Origin: Treponema sp.
GTDB taxonomy: Bacteria; Spirochaetota; Spirochaetia; Treponematales; Breznakiellaceae
Assembly: GCA_031288495.1 (NCBI GenBank)
Contig: JAITRH010000026.1
Span: forward strand, 1 to 32,772
Reading direction: 5' to 3'
Length of the DNA: 32,772 nt
Shown here: positions 3,805 through 15,186 of the stretch, one piece after another
How positions within the stretch are numbered: the stretch's first letter is position 1
Layout of the letters: the number at the start of each line of letters is the position of its first letter
Notes under the pieces: model-generated
Told to the model about the DNA's origin: nothing
Databases searched by the model: none
What the model saw: only the letters and a program-made list of their open reading frames with translations
Program-made: the position numbers and the translations under genes

Positions 3805-4749
3805 TCATTTCACCACCACCGAGTTCCCCGAAAGATCAAAGCCCACGGAGAATCGGGGGAGGTATTCAATGGTGGTGAGGACCGCCGCTTCGCCGGTGAA
3901 GCGGTAATAGACCTGCTTTGCCGCGAGGATATCCTCAAGCAGTTTCCGGTTCATGTCAATAAAGTTCATCACCATGAGAACCTGGGCCTGGGCGGAACTC
4001 TGTGCGGGAATAGACCGTATCACCGGGTCGGTTCCATCTGCCCAGAACTGGTCATCTCCATAGAACTCATAAGCCAGGGAGGAAAGCTCTAAGGGGAACC
4101 TATTGGGATTATCGATCCGAAGCCCCACCTTTAGCCGGGTATTGATGAGCTCCCCTTGATGCACCACAATCGTGGTAACGGTAAATTTCGGCTCCCGTAT
4201 CCGGGGAAAGGCCACTTCCGCGCTTACAAGGGAGGCGGTATGCTCTTCTCCCGTAAAGGTACATACCGTATCGGTCTCAAGCTTCGCATAGCAGATATCA
4301 AGCTCGGCTTCCTCCAAACCGGAACATCGGCTCAAATCCACGGCAAGGCCCAAGGGGAATTGGGCGGAAGTACGCGCGTCTACCCTAGGCTCCTCCTCCG
4401 TAAAGAAGAGCTTGGTCCCCTCATGCTGGGGCAGCCCGTTTACCATAAACTGCCATCCCCTGATTGCTATGGACGCCGGCATGGACCGCGGATTATCAAC
4501 CTGTAAGACAAAATAGAGGGTGATATGCTCCGTGGTTTTCGCTTCCAGATGATCAAAAACCACCTGTATCTGGGGAGCCGCTTCCTGAACCGGTGCAGCC
4601 TTTTCTATCTGAGGAGCGGTAAGCACCCTCGATGGGGGGATTCTTTCGGGAAGGGGCAGTTCCTGGGGGGGGTCTTGGGTCGTACACGATAGGCTTATCG
4701 TTATCAACACGAACCCGACCAAAGATACAAACCATCTGGGACCGATCAT
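3805..4749 (-). CDS. LEA type 2 (WHy-like) domain lipoprotein
   Basis: Signal peptide with lipobox-like ITISLSC; two LEA14-like repeats (FDHLEAKTTEHITLYFVLQVDNPRSMPASIAIRGWQFMVNG; VGLRIDNPNRFPLELSSLAYEFYGDDQ). Confidence 0.7.
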   Translation of the reverse strand: MIGPRWFVSLVGFVLITISLSCTTQDPPQELPLPERIPPSRVLTAPQIEKAAPVQEAAPQIQVVFDHLEAKTTEHITLYFVLQVDNPRSMPASIAIRGWQFMVNGLPQHEGTKLFFTEEEPRVDARTSAQFPLGLAVDLSRCSGLEEAELDICYAKLETDTVCTFTGEEHTASLVSAEVAFPRIREPKFTVTTIVVHQGELINTRLKVGLRIDNPNRFPLELSSLAYEFYGDDQFWADGTDPVIRSIPAQSSAQAQVLMVMNFIDMNRKLLEDILAAKQVYYRFTGEAAVLTTIEYLPRFSVGFDLSGNSVVVK

Positions 4750-5070
4750 GTTCTTTTTATCGTCAATTGCTCCCTAAAAGATAAGCAGTCTGCACGCAGA
4801 ATCGGGAGGAACGCAGGGCTTGACCGCGAGATCGAGGGATTATGCGGAGATTTGGGATATTTTATGATTCCTTGGAAGATAGGTGCAGCCCCCTAGCCAG
4901 AACAGCGGGGTTAAAAACCGGAGGGTTTATTCCCGCCGCCAACAGTTTAGGTAATTTTATCCACCGGACTTTGGTCCGAGAGTACCCGGCTGTTCACCGA
5001 TAACGCGGGTTTTAGGGCGAAAAATCTGCGTCATCCCTTGGGTACCTCTGAAAAGTATCCTGACGGGGGA

Positions 5071-5100
5071 TTGACAGGATTTTTGCAGCGGAGGTATAGT
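5071..5100 (+). promoter_or_regulatory. sigma70-type promoter upstream of aroF leader
   Basis: TTGACA (5071-5076), 18-bp spacer, TATAGT (5095-5100). Confidence 0.75.
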
Positions 5101-5109
5101 GCTACCAAT

Positions 5110-5235
5110 ATGAAAGGTAATGCCGTGCAATACTCCGTGGGTGATAAGACAGATAGGAGTTTCTCCCGTGCTGTTTATGATTACTATCTGGTCCTCATTC
5201 CAAGGGAGCCGCCGCCTATCAGCTTAAAGGGATAG
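5110..5235 (+). CDS. candidate leader peptide (41 aa) upstream of aroF
   Basis: MKGNAVQYSVGDKTDRSFSRAVYDYYLVLIPREPPPISLKG*; ATG 9 nt after the -10; contains Tyr-Asp-Tyr-Tyr; stop lies inside hairpin 5213-5238. Confidence 0.35.
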   Translation: MKGNAVQYSVGDKTDRSFSRAVYDYYLVLIPREPPPISLKG

Positions 5236-5254
5236 GCGATTACCTGGTTAATCA

Positions 5255-5287
5255 GGGAGGTTCCGAAAGGGGCCTCCCTTTTATTTT
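5255..5287 (+). terminator. intrinsic terminator/attenuator before aroF
   Basis: 10-bp stem GGGAGGTTCC-GAAA-GGGGCCTCCC (two G-U pairs) followed by TTTTATTTTT. Confidence 0.85.
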
Positions 5288-5355
5288 TATGGACCGGCGG
5301 TTTCATAAGCGGTAGCGAGGGAAACCGGCTGTCTATACCGTATCAGGGGGATAGT

Positions 5356-6405
5356 ATGATTATCGTAATAAAACGAGGGGCCGCCGCGGAATCGGTGCGG
5401 GGCTTCACCGCCTTGCTTGAGAAACAGGGGTTCAAGGTCCACCGTTCCGAAGGGGATTCCCAAATGGTTCTTGGCCTTGTGGGGGATACCACGGGGATTC
5501 AAGAGAAAAGTTTATTGGCCCATCAGCTGGTGGAGAAGGTCATCCGGGTACAAGAGCCGTATAAAAGGGCAAACCGGCTTTTTCACCCCGATGATACCCG
5601 GATTACGGTCTGCGGCCTTGACGGTAAGACCCGGCATATCGGAGCAGGGTATTTGGGGATCATTGCCGGTCCCTGCTCAGTAGAGACCCGGGAACAGATC
5701 AGCTCAGTGGCGCAATCGGTGAAACAGGCAGGGGCGGGCTTTCTCCGGGGCGGGGCTTTCAAACCTCGGACCAGCCCCTATAGCTTTCAAGGCCTCGGCT
5801 GTGAGGGGCTCTCCCTCCTCATAGAAGCTAAAAGGGTTACCGGCCTTCCGATTGTAACCGAGCTTATGGCCATTCATCAGCTTGAACTGTTCGATACCGT
5901 GGACATCATCCAGGTGGGGGCAAGGAACATGCAGAATTTCACCCTCCTCAAAGAGCTCGGCAACTGCCGTAAACCCATACTCCTTAAACGGGGGTATGCG
6001 GCCACCATAACCGAACTACTCATGGCCGCAGAATATATCATGGCTGGAGGCAACGACCGGATCATCCTCTGCGAACGGGGAATCCGGACCTTTGCGTCCT
6101 ATACCCGTAATACCCTGGATCTGTCTGCGGTTCCAATCTTAAAAAAACAGAGCCATCTCCCGGTGATCGTGGATCCCAGCCATGCCACGGGCCTCAGTTG
6201 GATGGTTCCTGCCATGGCTAAGGCCGCCATAGCAGCCGGAGCAGACGGCCTCATCCTGGAGGTGCACGCAAACCCCGAGGAAGCCCTCTGTGACGGCGAA
6301 CAGTCCATCACGCCCGATATGTTTGCAAAGCTCATGAAAACCCTACGGCGCTATGCCGCGATCGAAGGCCGGATCTTACCCGAGGAAGACCATGAAACCC
6401 CTTGA
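5356..6405 (+). CDS. aroF: 3-deoxy-7-phosphoheptulonate (DAHP) synthase
   Basis: Motifs GIIAGPCSVET, GAGFLRGGAFKPRTSPYSFQGLG, VGARNMQNFTLL, LLKRGYAATITELLMAAEYI, PVIVDPSHATG. Confidence 0.95.
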   Translation: MIIVIKRGAAAESVRGFTALLEKQGFKVHRSEGDSQMVLGLVGDTTGIQEKSLLAHQLVEKVIRVQEPYKRANRLFHPDDTRITVCGLDGKTRHIGAGYLGIIAGPCSVETREQISSVAQSVKQAGAGFLRGGAFKPRTSPYSFQGLGCEGLSLLIEAKRVTGLPIVTELMAIHQLELFDTVDIIQVGARNMQNFTLLKELGNCRKPILLKRGYAATITELLMAAEYIMAGGNDRIILCERGIRTFASYTRNTLDLSAVPILKKQSHLPVIVDPSHATGLSWMVPAMAKAAIAAGADGLILEVHANPEEALCDGEQSITPDMFAKLMKTLRRYAAIEGRILPEEDHETP

Positions 6406-7255
6406 AACCTACACCGTGGGTATGGTGGGACTCGGGCTTATGGGTGGGGCCATTGCCTTGGCCTTGCGCTCAGAAGGGATCATCCGTACCCCAGGCCGTA
6501 TTCTAGCCTATGACCGTAACCCGGATACCCTGGCCGCAGCCCAGGCCGAAGGCGTCATTGATGCAGGGATGATCTCCCCTGAGGCAATGCTGGGGCATTG
6601 CGACCTGGTCTTCCTCTGCCTCACCCCGAGGGGGATACTGCGTTTTATGGAAAGCCAGATGGCGGCTTTCCCGGCGGGAACCCTGATCACCGATATAGCG
6701 GGAACCAAGGGAAGCATTGTTGCCGCCATGGAACACACCCTCAGGGAGGATCTGGACTTCATACCAGGGCACCCTATGGCAGGCGGTGAGCTGGGAGGTT
6801 TTGTACATGCAAGAACCTGTAGGTTTCACGGGAAGAATTATATCCTCACCCCCCTTAAACGGAACAAACCGGAAAATCTGGCGGTGCTTAAAACCCTGAT
6901 CTATCGCATGGGGTTTCGCCGTATTACCGAGACCAGCGCCCAGGAGCATGACCGGAAGATCGCCTTTACCTCCCAGCTCTGCCATGTCATCGCCGCAGCC
7001 CTCATTGATTGTGAAGCGGATACGGAAATTACCCGCTTCGGCGGAGGGAGCTTTGAGGATCTCACCCGGATTGCCATGCTCAACGCCCCTATGTGGACGG
7101 AGCTTTTTATTGAAAACCGGAAGGAACTGTTACGGCGGATCGAACAGTTTGAGGGAAGCCTCGATAGGCTGAAAAGCGCTATCGCCCAGGGAGCAGGTCA
7201 AGAACTGGAACAGCGCTTGCAGCGGGTCCGGGAACGGCGGGCAGCCATGGCATAG
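6392..7255 (+). CDS. tyrA: prephenate dehydrogenase
   Basis: MKPLETYTVGMVGLGLMGGAIALALR (Rossmann GxGxxG), HPMAGGELGGF, SAQEHDRKIAFTSQLCHVIA; overlaps aroF by 14 nt. The ORF-track start at 6353 is probably too far upstream. Confidence 0.9.
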   Translation: MKPLETYTVGMVGLGLMGGAIALALRSEGIIRTPGRILAYDRNPDTLAAAQAEGVIDAGMISPEAMLGHCDLVFLCLTPRGILRFMESQMAAFPAGTLITDIAGTKGSIVAAMEHTLREDLDFIPGHPMAGGELGGFVHARTCRFHGKNYILTPLKRNKPENLAVLKTLIYRMGFRRITETSAQEHDRKIAFTSQLCHVIAAALIDCEADTEITRFGGGSFEDLTRIAMLNAPMWTELFIENRKELLRRIEQFEGSLDRLKSAIAQGAGQELEQRLQRVRERRAAMA

Positions 7256-7626
7256 GGCTCGCGGGTTTTCTCCCCATAGCGAGAGCCGGCTAATCCTGCG
7301 GGACATGCGGAATGAAGCGGCAGCGTTCCGGAGTTCATAGTCCGGCCTCGGGCAAAAACCTCCGGTATTGATGCGGGCGAAGCCAGGTTTCAAAATCATG
7401 GGGCGGTTTCTCAGGATTATGGGTCGTTGATGGAAAAGAAAAAGTCCGCCTCTTACCCGAAATAACGCGCTTTTGGGGGGTTCCTTCGGGAAAATCCGCG
7501 TTCATTTGCGGACCCTCAGGATCGAGGGAAGATCGACGCAGGTCTCCGGTTAGGGCGGACTACAGGTCTGTGGAAACTCCAGGTCCGATGAAAGGGTACC
7601 CATAAAAAAGTGGTTTCATCTAACAC

Positions 7627-11212: not shown

Positions 11213-11230
11213 TAAAGGATTGTGTACGGC

Positions 11231-13237
11231 ATGATGGGGAACCCGCATCGTTTACCCAAAAATCCCGATGCCTTTGCCGCCATCCCCCAGGTAGGGGTAC
11301 CGATAAGCCTCACCTTAATCGGCATCATCACCGGGATGACGGTCCTTTCCCTGGGGCTGCTCACTGCCGTAATGTCCTGGCTGGTTACCCAAGATATCCG
11401 CAGTACTGCGGAAAACAACAACCGTAGCATTAATCAAAGAAACACCGCCGGTGTAGAGGCCCTGTTGGGAACCCTGCGGGGAGATGTGCAGATGTTCCTC
11501 TATACCACTGAAAATCTTTTAGCCGAAGGAGTCTCCGATGCCGCCCCTTTGCGGCAGGCCGAATTACCCGGCGGCATAAGCCATGAAACCATACGCCGGA
11601 ACCTCGAAACCTCCTTCTTTCAGCAACGCCCGGATATTGCGGCTATCTTCCTTATCCCGAGAGAAGCGGAAAAGGATGCAGCCCATACCGGGTATACCGC
11701 CTTCATCAATCACAGGTTTTTGGCCCACCATGAACTGGAGCCTCCATCGATCCACCGCTTTATGGCAGCCCAGGACGGATCGGTGATCCGGGCCCGGTCA
11801 GGACAAGGGGTTCTGCAGGAGGGAGGGCCCCTTTTTTCGGTTCCCCTCTTGGGGATGTTCTTTCCCCTCACCGAGGAAGCCGGAACCAGGGTGGGGGCGG
11901 TCTTGTTCTCCGCGGAACATCTCACCGAGACCTTTGGTTCCGGTGCAAATACTACGTTTATGATAAACCATGAGGGGGCTATCCTGCTCCATACCGACCA
12001 CGCCCTCATGAAAGGGAGTGCAACCCTGCAAAACCATGCATTTATCCGGTATATCCTCCGCACGAGCCCTTACCGGACCCGGAATACCTATCCTCCCTAT
12101 GTGGATGAACAGGACGGGCCATGCTTTGCGGCGTTTCAGCCGGTGAGGATGGGAAGTAATTTCAGCAATGCCACGGTGATCACCGTCATCCCAGAAGAGG
12201 TGGTGTTTGAGGGTATCCGGCGGACCACCTGGCGGAATATCTACCTGTCTTTAGCGGTCCTGTTTCTCGCCATACTTTTCATTTATTGCTTTTCTAAGAC
12301 CATAAGCAGCCCCCTGCAGCAACTCTCCCACGCGGCCTTTAAGATAGAAGCAGGACAGTACGACCTCAAACTCAGGGTAAGAACCAGAGATGAAACCGGC
12401 GTCCTTACCGGCAGCTTTATCAGCATGGGACAGGCCTTAGAAAACTTTGAGCGCTTCACCAATAAGGCCATTGTCGCCATGGCCCGTAAAGGAAAGCTCA
12501 CCCTTGGAGGGACGACTAAAACAGGTACCGTCTGTTTTGCCTTTATTCGGGATTTTTCTAAAATGGCCGAACAGTTCGATGCCCATGAAACCGTGGCCTT
12601 CGTGAATGCGTATCTGAAACGCATGGTTCCCTGTATCAGCAAAACCCGGGGGGAAGTGGATAAGTTTTTAACCCAAGGAGGGGTGATAATCATGGCCCTG
12701 TGGGGTACCTTAGAGTCCGCAGGACCGGAACAGGATGCCCTCAACAGTATCAAGGCGGCTTTATTGATGCGGGCTTCCCTACGGGTGTTAAACCATAAAC
12801 GGCAGCACCAGGGAAAGCCCAGTATCAAGATGGGCTGCGGTATTAATACGGGAGAACTGGTTGCAGGCCAAATAGGCAGCAATGACCGCATGGAATACAC
12901 GGTGATAGGGGATACGGTTAACTTTGCCGCCCGGGTTGAAGGCCCGAATGATGCCTTTGATACGGATATTCTGATTACCGAAGATACCTGGAACCGGGTG
13001 GGAACCTACCTCATCACCGAAGAGATGCCTGGGTTTGCGGTAAAGGGCAAGGAAAAGCCCGTTCGGGTGTTTGCGGTGGTCAATATGAAACAGGGAGCAG
13101 AAGCGGCTCAGGAAAACCAGGCCCTGCTCTCCCTCATGGAAGACCTCCTGCCAGCGGATATGCTCCTTGCAAGACCTTGTGTCGGACCTGAAGGGCCGGC
13201 CACCTTAGGGGAAGTGAGGGAACGATGGATACCCTAA
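11231..13237 (+). CDS. membrane cache-HAMP class III nucleotidyl cyclase homologue lacking both metal-binding Asp residues (C2-like)
   Basis: TM segments, extracellular sensor region (MINHEGAILLHTD...NHAFIRYIL), HAMP-like region, cyclase domain with VCFAFIRDFSKMAE, VDKFLTQGGVIIMALWG, GCGINTGELVAGQIGSNDRMEYTVIGDTVNFAARVE. ATG 11231 fits the RBS (aaagga) better than the GTG at 11222. Confidence 0.9.
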   Translation: MMGNPHRLPKNPDAFAAIPQVGVPISLTLIGIITGMTVLSLGLLTAVMSWLVTQDIRSTAENNNRSINQRNTAGVEALLGTLRGDVQMFLYTTENLLAEGVSDAAPLRQAELPGGISHETIRRNLETSFFQQRPDIAAIFLIPREAEKDAAHTGYTAFINHRFLAHHELEPPSIHRFMAAQDGSVIRARSGQGVLQEGGPLFSVPLLGMFFPLTEEAGTRVGAVLFSAEHLTETFGSGANTTFMINHEGAILLHTDHALMKGSATLQNHAFIRYILRTSPYRTRNTYPPYVDEQDGPCFAAFQPVRMGSNFSNATVITVIPEEVVFEGIRRTTWRNIYLSLAVLFLAILFIYCFSKTISSPLQQLSHAAFKIEAGQYDLKLRVRTRDETGVLTGSFISMGQALENFERFTNKAIVAMARKGKLTLGGTTKTGTVCFAFIRDFSKMAEQFDAHETVAFVNAYLKRMVPCISKTRGEVDKFLTQGGVIIMALWGTLESAGPEQDALNSIKAALLMRASLRVLNHKRQHQGKPSIKMGCGINTGELVAGQIGSNDRMEYTVIGDTVNFAARVEGPNDAFDTDILITEDTWNRVGTYLITEEMPGFAVKGKEKPVRVFAVVNMKQGAEAAQENQALLSLMEDLLPADMLLARPCVGPEGPATLGEVRERWIP

Positions 13238-15186
13238 ACCGGCCTGTCATGAAGGTGCGCTTTTCTCTGGGGGCAAAATTGGTCAGCATCATTTCGGTGC
13301 TTATGATTGTCTCTTTGGGGAGTATGACCGTCATTGCCACGATGATGATCAATAAAGATGTACAGATTACCGCAGAAGAGGCCAACTTCAGTATCAACAG
13401 GCGGACCGCCCTCTCTGCGGGCCGCCGGATTACGGGGGTGTATGATGATGCGCTGCTGCTCTTGAACACCTTGACTGCGTTGAACAGCATCCACATGCTG
13501 GAACAAAAAGGGCCGCTCGCAGTGGATTACTTCTACCAGCAGAACCAGGCTATTGGGGCAATTGGGGTCAGTAATACGATAAACCAAGGGGTCCACGGAA
13601 GCGAATTGTTCGTCAATAGATACTTTATGGTGGCAAACCGGCTTACCGCTTCCCGTATTGAAGCCTTTCTGCACACCCAAACCGAAGCCATTAGTTTAGC
13701 CCGGGAGGGTATGGTGTTCCTGCTCAACGTAAGCCCTTTTTTTGAGATGGAGCTTCTGGAACTGCTCTTTCCCTGGAAGAATGGAGATATAGACACCGCG
13801 GTCATGGTTTTTTTCTCCATAGACAGCCTCAAAACGCTCTTTTCCGATACGGTGAATCGCTCGTTCATCATAAACGGAGCCGGGGATCTGTTAATTGATC
13901 CGGAACCTGCATTGATCCGGGCCGGGGTAAACGTAAGAAACCACGCCTTTATCAAACAGATCCTTGAAGGGACCGCCCGGAATCTACAAACCGCCTACCG
14001 GGATGCAGAGGGAAAGAGAAACTTTGTGGCCTATGAACGGCTCTCCTTAGGCAGCGCCGTTGTGGTGACGGTGATTCCGGCAAAAACTGTGTTTCAGGGG
14101 ATCCTGGCTACCACCGGGCGCAACATATGCGTGTCTCTGGGCGTGCTCCTCGGGTCAATCTTCTGCATCCTGCTGTTTGCCCGGAGACATCTGAGGAAAC
14201 CCCTTAAAGCCTTGACTCGGGCCGCAGGGATGATTGAGGAGGGAACCTACCGGATAGAACAGACCATCACCTTTGCCGCAAGAAAGGACGAGATTGGAAT
14301 TTTAGGCGCCAGTTTTATCAGTATGAGCCGCGGCCTTATCAGCTTTGAACAATTCACCAACAAAAAACTGACGAACTTGGCCCGAAGCGGTAAACTGGTG
14401 ATTGGCGGAACCGACCGAAAAGCCACCCTGTTTTTTTCAGATATCCGGGGTTTCACCGCCCTGTCGGAAAAGCTCCAAGCCCACGAAATCGTCGAATTCC
14501 TGAACGATTATATGGAACGGATGGTAGCCTGTGTGCGGGCAAGCGGCGGGATGGTGGATAAATTTATCGGAGATGCGGTGATGGCCCATTGGGGGGCCTT
14601 GGAATCTTCGGGAAGCCCCCAACAGGATGCCTTGCATTGCGTCAAATCAGCCTTGATGATGCGAGCCTCCCTTATGGCCTTTAATCAGGGGCGGGGCGGG
14701 GACAAGAAACCCCTCATCAAGATAGGGTGCGGTATCAACTCCGGTAACCTTGTGGCAGGACAAATCGGCTCCGATGAACGGCTTGAATACACGGTCATCG
14801 GGGACGCGGTGAGTTTTGCCGATAGAACCGAAACCTTTAATAAACCTTTTGGTACGGAGATATTGATAAGTGAAAACACCTGGAAACTCTGCGGGGAACA
14901 CCTGATTACCGAAGAGATGCCCCAGGTTACCGAAAAGGGTAAAAAGGTGCGGATGTTTGCGGTGGTCAACCTGGCGGACCTTGATGAAACGGAGGATCTG
15001 TTACGCTGTTTGGATGCCATGCCGAGAAACATCCCGAAAATAAGCCGGCGATGTGTAGGACCCGAAGGGCCGCAGACCTTAGCAGAAGTCCGCAGCCTCC
15101 TGGGGATAGCCCCTCCTGATTTAAGCAAGGTGAATACGGATGAAGAAGAAAAGAAGTATACCCTTAATGCAGAAGCCACGACATGA
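13225..15186 (+). CDS. membrane cache-HAMP class III adenylate/guanylate cyclase (C1-like)
   Basis: Same architecture; LFFSDIRGFTALSEK, VDKFIGDAVMAHWG, GCGINSGNLVAGQIGSDERLEYTVIGDAVSFADRTE. Overlaps the upstream cyclase by 13 nt. Confidence 0.92.
   Translation: MDTLNRPVMKVRFSLGAKLVSIISVLMIVSLGSMTVIATMMINKDVQITAEEANFSINRRTALSAGRRITGVYDDALLLLNTLTALNSIHMLEQKGPLAVDYFYQQNQAIGAIGVSNTINQGVHGSELFVNRYFMVANRLTASRIEAFLHTQTEAISLAREGMVFLLNVSPFFEMELLELLFPWKNGDIDTAVMVFFSIDSLKTLFSDTVNRSFIINGAGDLLIDPEPALIRAGVNVRNHAFIKQILEGTARNLQTAYRDAEGKRNFVAYERLSLGSAVVVTVIPAKTVFQGILATTGRNICVSLGVLLGSIFCILLFARRHLRKPLKALTRAAGMIEEGTYRIEQTITFAARKDEIGILGASFISMSRGLISFEQFTNKKLTNLARSGKLVIGGTDRKATLFFSDIRGFTALSEKLQAHEIVEFLNDYMERMVACVRASGGMVDKFIGDAVMAHWGALESSGSPQQDALHCVKSALMMRASLMAFNQGRGGDKKPLIKIGCGINSGNLVAGQIGSDERLEYTVIGDAVSFADRTETFNKPFGTEILISENTWKLCGEHLITEEMPQVTEKGKKVRMFAVVNLADLDETEDLLRCLDAMPRNIPKISRRCVGPEGPQTLAEVRSLLGIAPPDLSKVNTDEEEKKYTLNAEATT

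Follow-up and report, generated by a model that had tools for sequence, protein, structure and literature searches.

Leader-peptide attenuators are a textbook case of regulation in which the ribosome serves as the sensor. Elements of this kind are on record from Proteobacteria, Actinobacteria and a small number of Firmicutes, and RNA-level sensing of Tyr has been ascribed to T-boxes (PMC2965389, PMC1262725). In a 2005 survey, RNA-level regulation is attributed to T-boxes for Tyr and to attenuators for Phe, His and Thr (PMC1262725), and a survey of 2010 added Firmicutes to the Proteobacteria and Actinobacteria, previously the only groups known to have leader peptides (PMC2965389). Nearest in gene context is aroR of C. 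glutamicum, located 5′ of aroF, which carries Phe-Tyr-Phe and responds to Phe and not to Tyr limitation (Neshat et al. 2014, PMC11802643). The accessible part of Table 7 of PMC1173090 additionally gives, as Merino predictions, putative attenuators before tyrA operons, for example Vibrio aroA-tyrA. Here, we describe an element upstream of aroF-tyrA in a termite-gut spirochaete. Judging from its sequence and those of its relatives, it is very probably a trp-type ribosome-mediated transcription attenuator that gauges charged tRNA-Tyr.

The aroF-tyrA locus

The window, by which we mean the whole 32,772-nt stretch of DNA analysed, is one contig of a draft genome of 2.72 Mb in 252 contigs (G000), whose closest named relatives are "Treponema sp." MAGs. 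All features of the leader and of aroF-tyrA given below lie on the + strand. The gene aroF (5356–6405) encodes a DAHP synthase (Pfam PF18152 and PF00793), and tyrA (6353–7255 in the ORF list) a prephenate dehydrogenase (PF02153 and PF20463). As listed, tyrA overlaps the end of aroF; its true start is probably at ~6392. By Pfam content, aroF-tyrA is a Tyr-pathway operon. A second DAHP synthase of ~650 aa, with a prephenate dehydratase domain fused on, is encoded elsewhere in the genome (contig C99, 371–2017) and is apparently the Phe-branch enzyme. In the genomes of the relatives examined, no convincing parallel Phe, His or Trp leader was seen upstream of the AroF-PheA fusion, hisD or trpE, a negative of limited weight because these genes do not always head their operons. 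Farther downstream in the window (11222–15186), two adjoining large proteins resemble, by eye, membrane-bound class III adenylate/guanylate cyclases; they are similar to each other and are likely the product of a tandem duplication.

Promoter, leader ORF and terminator

A sigma-70-type promoter, TTGACA-18-TATAGT, lies at 5071–5100, where the original prediction had placed it. It agrees with the consensus at 11 of 12 positions and is the sole promoter-like match of the scan in 4700–7600; TTGACA...TATA boxes of a similar kind are found 5′ of the leader in four relatives (L032, L033, L034 and L037). The 41-codon ORF with four Tyr and one Phe that had been proposed to follow the promoter is likewise present, from ATG 5110 to TAG 5233–5235. 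ATG 5110 as the leader start did not hold up, as it is not kept in close relatives, which have a GTG equivalent to 5125. We consider GTG 5125 the likelier start, because both this codon and an AAAGG Shine-Dalgarno sequence (5113–5117) are kept in those relatives and the ATG is not. The leader peptide is thus probably 36 aa long with a GTG start (VQYSVGDKTDRSFSRAVYDYYLVLIPREPPPISLKG, 5125–5235), as read from the alignment of seven close relatives. In L035 and L036, the Shine-Dalgarno sequence and start read GGAGGAAA(A)-ATG, and leader ORFs are found in 38 other loci in all.

The leader stop codon sits within a hairpin formed by CGCCTATC (5213–5220) and GATAGGCG (5231–5238). This enclosing hairpin at 5213–5238, anticipated earlier, is evident in both the sequence and the fold; its sequence varies among relatives, yet in many of them it occupies the same position. 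An intrinsic terminator (5254–5289) follows, again as anticipated, with an 11-bp stem spanning 5254–5279, a GAAA loop and a T-rich tail reaching ~5289. Across 39 loci, 95.6% of the cells of the terminator stem are paired, compared with at most ~70% in slid registers, and both sides have changed in 21 cells versus 6.5 in shuffles.

Single-sequence pattern scans are within chance (promoters, 1 versus 1.7 expected; terminators, 3 versus 3.3 expected), and the fold of the window leader beats its shuffles with a z of −2.2. What stands above chance is conservation, that is, the comparison between loci, and the case rests on that. Such comparison establishes the parts of the element, their conservation, their compensatory pairings and the distances between them. 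The architecture set comprises 39 leaders, namely the window and 38 relatives, all with the same order: Tyr run, region 2, stop codon (often inside the hairpin), terminator, T-run and aroF. The consensus is CGCGGAGCC for region 2 and GGGAGGCTCCG for the 5′ arm of the terminator. For one locus (L051), the automatic pick was a later hairpin; its attenuator terminator is present and was used in the subsequent analyses. In the 39 loci, the GGAG core of region 2 lies 11–21 nt past the last Tyr codon (mean 16.7, sd 1.8), and the spacing between that codon and the stop varies more (27–63 nt). In L051 and L053, the leader stop lies ~270–320 nt from aroF instead of ~100, with an extra insert between the two.

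Tyr codons of the leader

The predicted regulatory codons of the window, TAT GAT TAC TAT (5176–5187), encode the Tyr-Asp-Tyr-Tyr to which the original prediction had drawn attention. This cluster, with Tyr at 3 of 4 codons, is among the weakest. Relatives do keep the Tyr codons and the ORF, a check proposed at the time, and most of them are richer in Tyr than the window. For the 80 nearest aroF loci and the window, 79 of which have 250 nt of upstream DNA, we compared Tyr clusters with those in dinucleotide shuffles. Of the 79 upstream regions, 33 contain 10 consecutive stop-free codons that include at least four Tyr, versus 1.15 expected, and 20 contain such a stretch with at least five, versus 0.1; other amino acids show far smaller ratios over shuffles in the same regions. 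Leaders contain three to seven clustered Tyr codons (for example, VYAFYYYYLF, AYFYYYYYYLS and PYYYYYYRS). In the Tyr runs of the 39 leaders, TAT is used 129 times and TAC 56 times. Such variation of the third base is the pattern to be expected where it is the amino acid that is conserved.

A broader aromatic sensing, of Phe together with Tyr, would be a variant of the attenuator mechanism and not exclusive of it. Several Tyr runs contain scattered Phe codons (YFYYYYY, AYFYYFY), the reaction catalysed by the aroF product supplies all three aromatic pathways, and C. glutamicum aroR, with its Phe-Tyr-Phe, responds to Phe (PMC11802643). However, many leaders have pure Tyr runs such as YYYYYY immediately 5′ of aroF, and the upstream excess of Phe is small (at least four in 14 loci versus 9.3 expected, compared with the 33 versus 1.15 for Tyr). 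Moreover, Phe synthesis has the AroF-PheA fusion of its own, which lacks such a leader in the relatives examined. We regard broader sensing as unlikely; the codon content suggests that sensing is probably Tyr-specific.

Alternative pairing of regions 1, 2 and 3

Three segments of the window leader can engage in mutually alternative helices. Region 1, ACTCCGTGG (5132–5140), can pair with GGGAG (5204–5208) of region 2, as indicated by the window fold and the 1:2 duplex energies. Region 2, GGGAGCC (5204–5210), was placed by pairing counts and by its distance from the Tyr codons, its core lying 17 nt past the last of them. Region 3, GGTTCC (5259–5264), is part of the terminator 5′ arm and the antiterminator partner, forming a 6-bp helix with GGAGCC (5205–5210). 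The original prediction had suggested switching by way of a CTCCC motif at 5165–5169. The motif exists, at 5163–5167, and switching itself is supported by compensatory changes in the antiterminator pairing; the main switching strand is region 1, ACTCCGTGG, and not CTCCC.

The 2:3 duplex is stronger between cognate partners than between non-cognate ones (−18.3 versus −16.3 kcal/mol), and 0 of 10,000 permutations were as good; here and in the pairing tests below, such figures are counts and not probabilities because related sequences are not independent. The 2:3 covariation score of 0.224 exceeds that of any slid register (at most 0.129) and was attained by 4 of 500 shuffles. Pair counts for 2:3 also exceed those of slid registers; outside the GGAG core they are modest, and pairs changed on both sides are not above shuffles there. 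An extended test used 52 loci, made up of the 39 and a further 13 found with the covariance model, 10 of them from a second family with differing sequences. In these loci, the longest helix that region 2 can form with the terminator arm scored 17.2 versus 15.2 for permuted partners (0 of 5000 as good), and 16.7 versus 13.5 in the second family only (10 loci; 0 of 5000). Compensating helices include GTGCGGA/TCCGCAC (L223), CAGAGTTCT/GGAACTCTG (L224), GAAGAGT/ACTCTTC (L225) and TTGGAG/CTCCAA (L233). For 1:2 pairing, 0 of 10,000 permutations matched the duplex energies; this pairing is strong in part of the loci and weak in some. In the untranslated window leader, 2:3 is favoured over 1:2.

Proposed mechanism and simulated ribosome states

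The transcription and translation of the element, the stalling of ribosomes on it and its response to Tyr are what we infer from these parts. The leader transcript would begin at ~5107 and be translated while being made. When Tyr-tRNA is scarce, the ribosome would stall at the Tyr codons (5176–5187), with its footprint ending just 5′ of region 2, and GGAGCC (5205–5210) could then pair with GGTTCC (5259–5264). This 2:3 antiterminator would block the terminator and let RNA polymerase continue into aroF-tyrA. When Tyr is ample, the ribosome would reach the stop codon within the hairpin. There it would cover region 2 in loci with a short ORF tail; in the window and its genus, region 1 would instead re-pair with region 2 behind the ribosome. 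Either way, region 3 would be freed, the terminator would form, and transcription would end at ~5287.

A ribosome whose A site holds a Tyr codon covers ~12 nt past that codon's first base. Set against the Tyr-to-core distance of 11–21 nt, this footprint would leave region 2 free under a stalled ribosome. We simulated the stall by placing a ribosome at the last Tyr codon and folding only the RNA ahead of it, as far as the terminator loop. A mean of 3.79 of the four core bases of region 2 paired with region 3, versus 1.89 without a ribosome; pairing was higher than without the ribosome in 38 of 39 loci, and all 39 formed at least two core pairs. In a control with region 2 and the spacer shuffled, the 9-nt region 2 formed 1.8 pairs, compared with 6.4 unshuffled. 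When region 4 is included, the terminator prevails at equilibrium even if the ribosome is stalled (~0.13 2:3 pairs), so the switch must be kinetic, decided during transcription as in trp. When the simulated ribosome was placed at the stop, region 2 was covered in short-tail loci. In the window's group, region 2 was free behind the ribosome, and 1:2 formed in most, not all, of the loci.

Distribution among spirochaetes

The same layout is found in 38 of the 80 nearest aroF loci. About half of these 80 loci are without the element, which indicates that the operon can do without it. Among 200 genomes of the same family, 46 were matched by a covariance model of the leader, nearly always once per genome. 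An aroF homologue was confirmed by BLASTP in 42 of the 46 inspected matched loci; the exceptions include contig-end cuts and one unrelated weak match (L234). In an even sample of the class, 18 of 395 genomes match, 12 of them in one other family of Treponematales (f3). Within the window's genus, the element is present in all seven genomes in which one contig carries aroF together with its upstream region; in the four genomes that gave no match, the locus is either missing or cut by a contig end. It is also found in Breznakiella homolactica RmG30 (L074; Breznakiellaceae, Treponematales).

When 42 loci classed as negative were searched with the covariance model, two positives emerged, L047 (contig-end cut) and L109, along with one remnant, L039. 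At 450–490 of L039, the leader ORF is gone, and the attenuator terminator comes almost immediately after a promoter-like TTGACA...TATATT. By its sequence, this remnant should terminate without sensing Tyr, or be decaying. Seven other loci (L048, L050, L058, L067, L068, L070 and L081) have aroF genes that are 72–74% identical, no leader, and, a short way 5′ of aroF, similar sequence that is apparently coding. Given this upstream sequence and the missing leader, a different promoter seems to drive the operon in these loci.

The original prediction had offered an autonomous sRNA as an alternative. According to this reading, either the ~180-nt RNA functions autonomously or the leader peptide works in trans, and the position before aroF is incidental. 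An RNA of this size would indeed be released, given the element's own promoter and strong terminator, and trans roles of leader RNAs and peptides are known, such as peTrpL of Sinorhizobium (PMC7298713). However, an sRNA does not predict that Tyr codons are kept through synonymous change, that a single copy per genome lies directly 5′ of aroF, or that the antiterminator covaries. It is not needed to explain the element, leaves both the Tyr-codon conservation and the aroF position unaccounted for, and is in our view quite improbable. The released ~180-nt RNA may have an additional role beside attenuation.

Comparison with known RNA families

Rfam includes Trp_leader, Phe_leader and others. Neither the window nor 20 leader loci gave a covariance-model match to the amino-acid leader families of Rfam, and the Rfam check proposed with the original prediction did not go against it, as no family of any kind, T-box included, matches these sequences at the attenuator. 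For the T-box, no match was obtained in the window at the gathering score, nor in a permissive search of 4850–5400. An Rfam search of a further 20 aroF loci, almost all of them leaderless, also gave no T-box or other match. A sub-threshold match to sbrA in the window (18.4 bits versus 45) was rejected as chance. In one genome of the second family (L225), a TD-1 RNA (RF03155, 70.7 bits) lies at 1323–1443 (−), between the Tyr attenuator and aroF. TD-1 is also cis-regulatory; its coordinates are separate from those of the attenuator, and it was not found in the window. Control of the terminator by a ligand or protein (a riboswitch, a T-box or an RNA-binding protein), or a constitutive terminator, with the Tyr-rich ORF a passive bystander, is highly improbable: a terminator with alternative pairings would serve such control too, and Tyr-specific T-boxes are known in other bacteria (PMC1262725), but beyond the lack of Rfam matches, what is kept between families is the Tyr codons, the spacing, the complementarity and little else, with no ligand-binding core.

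Discussion

We return to ribosome-mediated attenuation by Tyr codons. As far as checked, and by sequence comparison, this is a real conserved element of a known mechanism class, with an amino acid and a phylum that appear new. A literature search for Tyr-codon attenuators or spirochaete leader peptides found none among the accessible papers. We lean towards regarding these leaders, which are shared by at least two families of Treponematales, as the first family of leader-peptide attenuators specific for Tyr codons and as the first leader-peptide attenuators of any kind described from Spirochaetota. A Tyr-codon attenuator across a spirochaete order would extend both the amino-acid and the phylum range of such systems. 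Its predicted effect is that aroF-tyrA is expressed only under Tyr scarcity. Since Breznakiella homolactica is a cultured carrier, the system is testable. In addition, the ~50 leaders provide a ready covariance model for annotation, and the losses, the remnant and the range of three to seven Tyr codons form a natural series for the evolution of such switches.

Every structural feature of the trp, phe and his attenuators that we tested for is present here, save that 1:2 pairing is not uniform. Like those attenuators (for example, trpL and pheL), the spirochaete element has a leader ORF containing end-product codons, a biosynthetic operon downstream, regions 1–4 with alternative 2:3 and 3:4 pairing and, strongly in part of the loci, potential 1:2 pairing, and an intrinsic terminator. 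Unlike the proteobacterial trp, pheA and his leaders, it uses Tyr codons, occurs in Spirochaetota and lacks a sequence match in Rfam; many loci have a stop-codon hairpin between regions 2 and 3, and the window leader, at 36 codons, is longer. The predictions of Table 7 in PMC1173090 also comprise a terminator and antiterminator before an aroF(aroA)-tyrA operon; in the accessible part of that source, the operons are named without a sensing codon or a Tyr-codon mechanism, and the text of that paper makes no mention of a spirochaete or Treponema. C. glutamicum aroR is similarly a leader-peptide attenuator with aromatic codons before a DAHP synthase gene, but it has no Tyr run and belongs to a different phylum. 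Finally, the Tyr T-box of Firmicutes responds to the signal proposed for the spirochaete element, uncharged versus charged tRNA-Tyr, and acts on the same class of target gene. The T-box RNA binds the tRNA directly, without a leader peptide, whereas the spirochaete element has a leader ORF.
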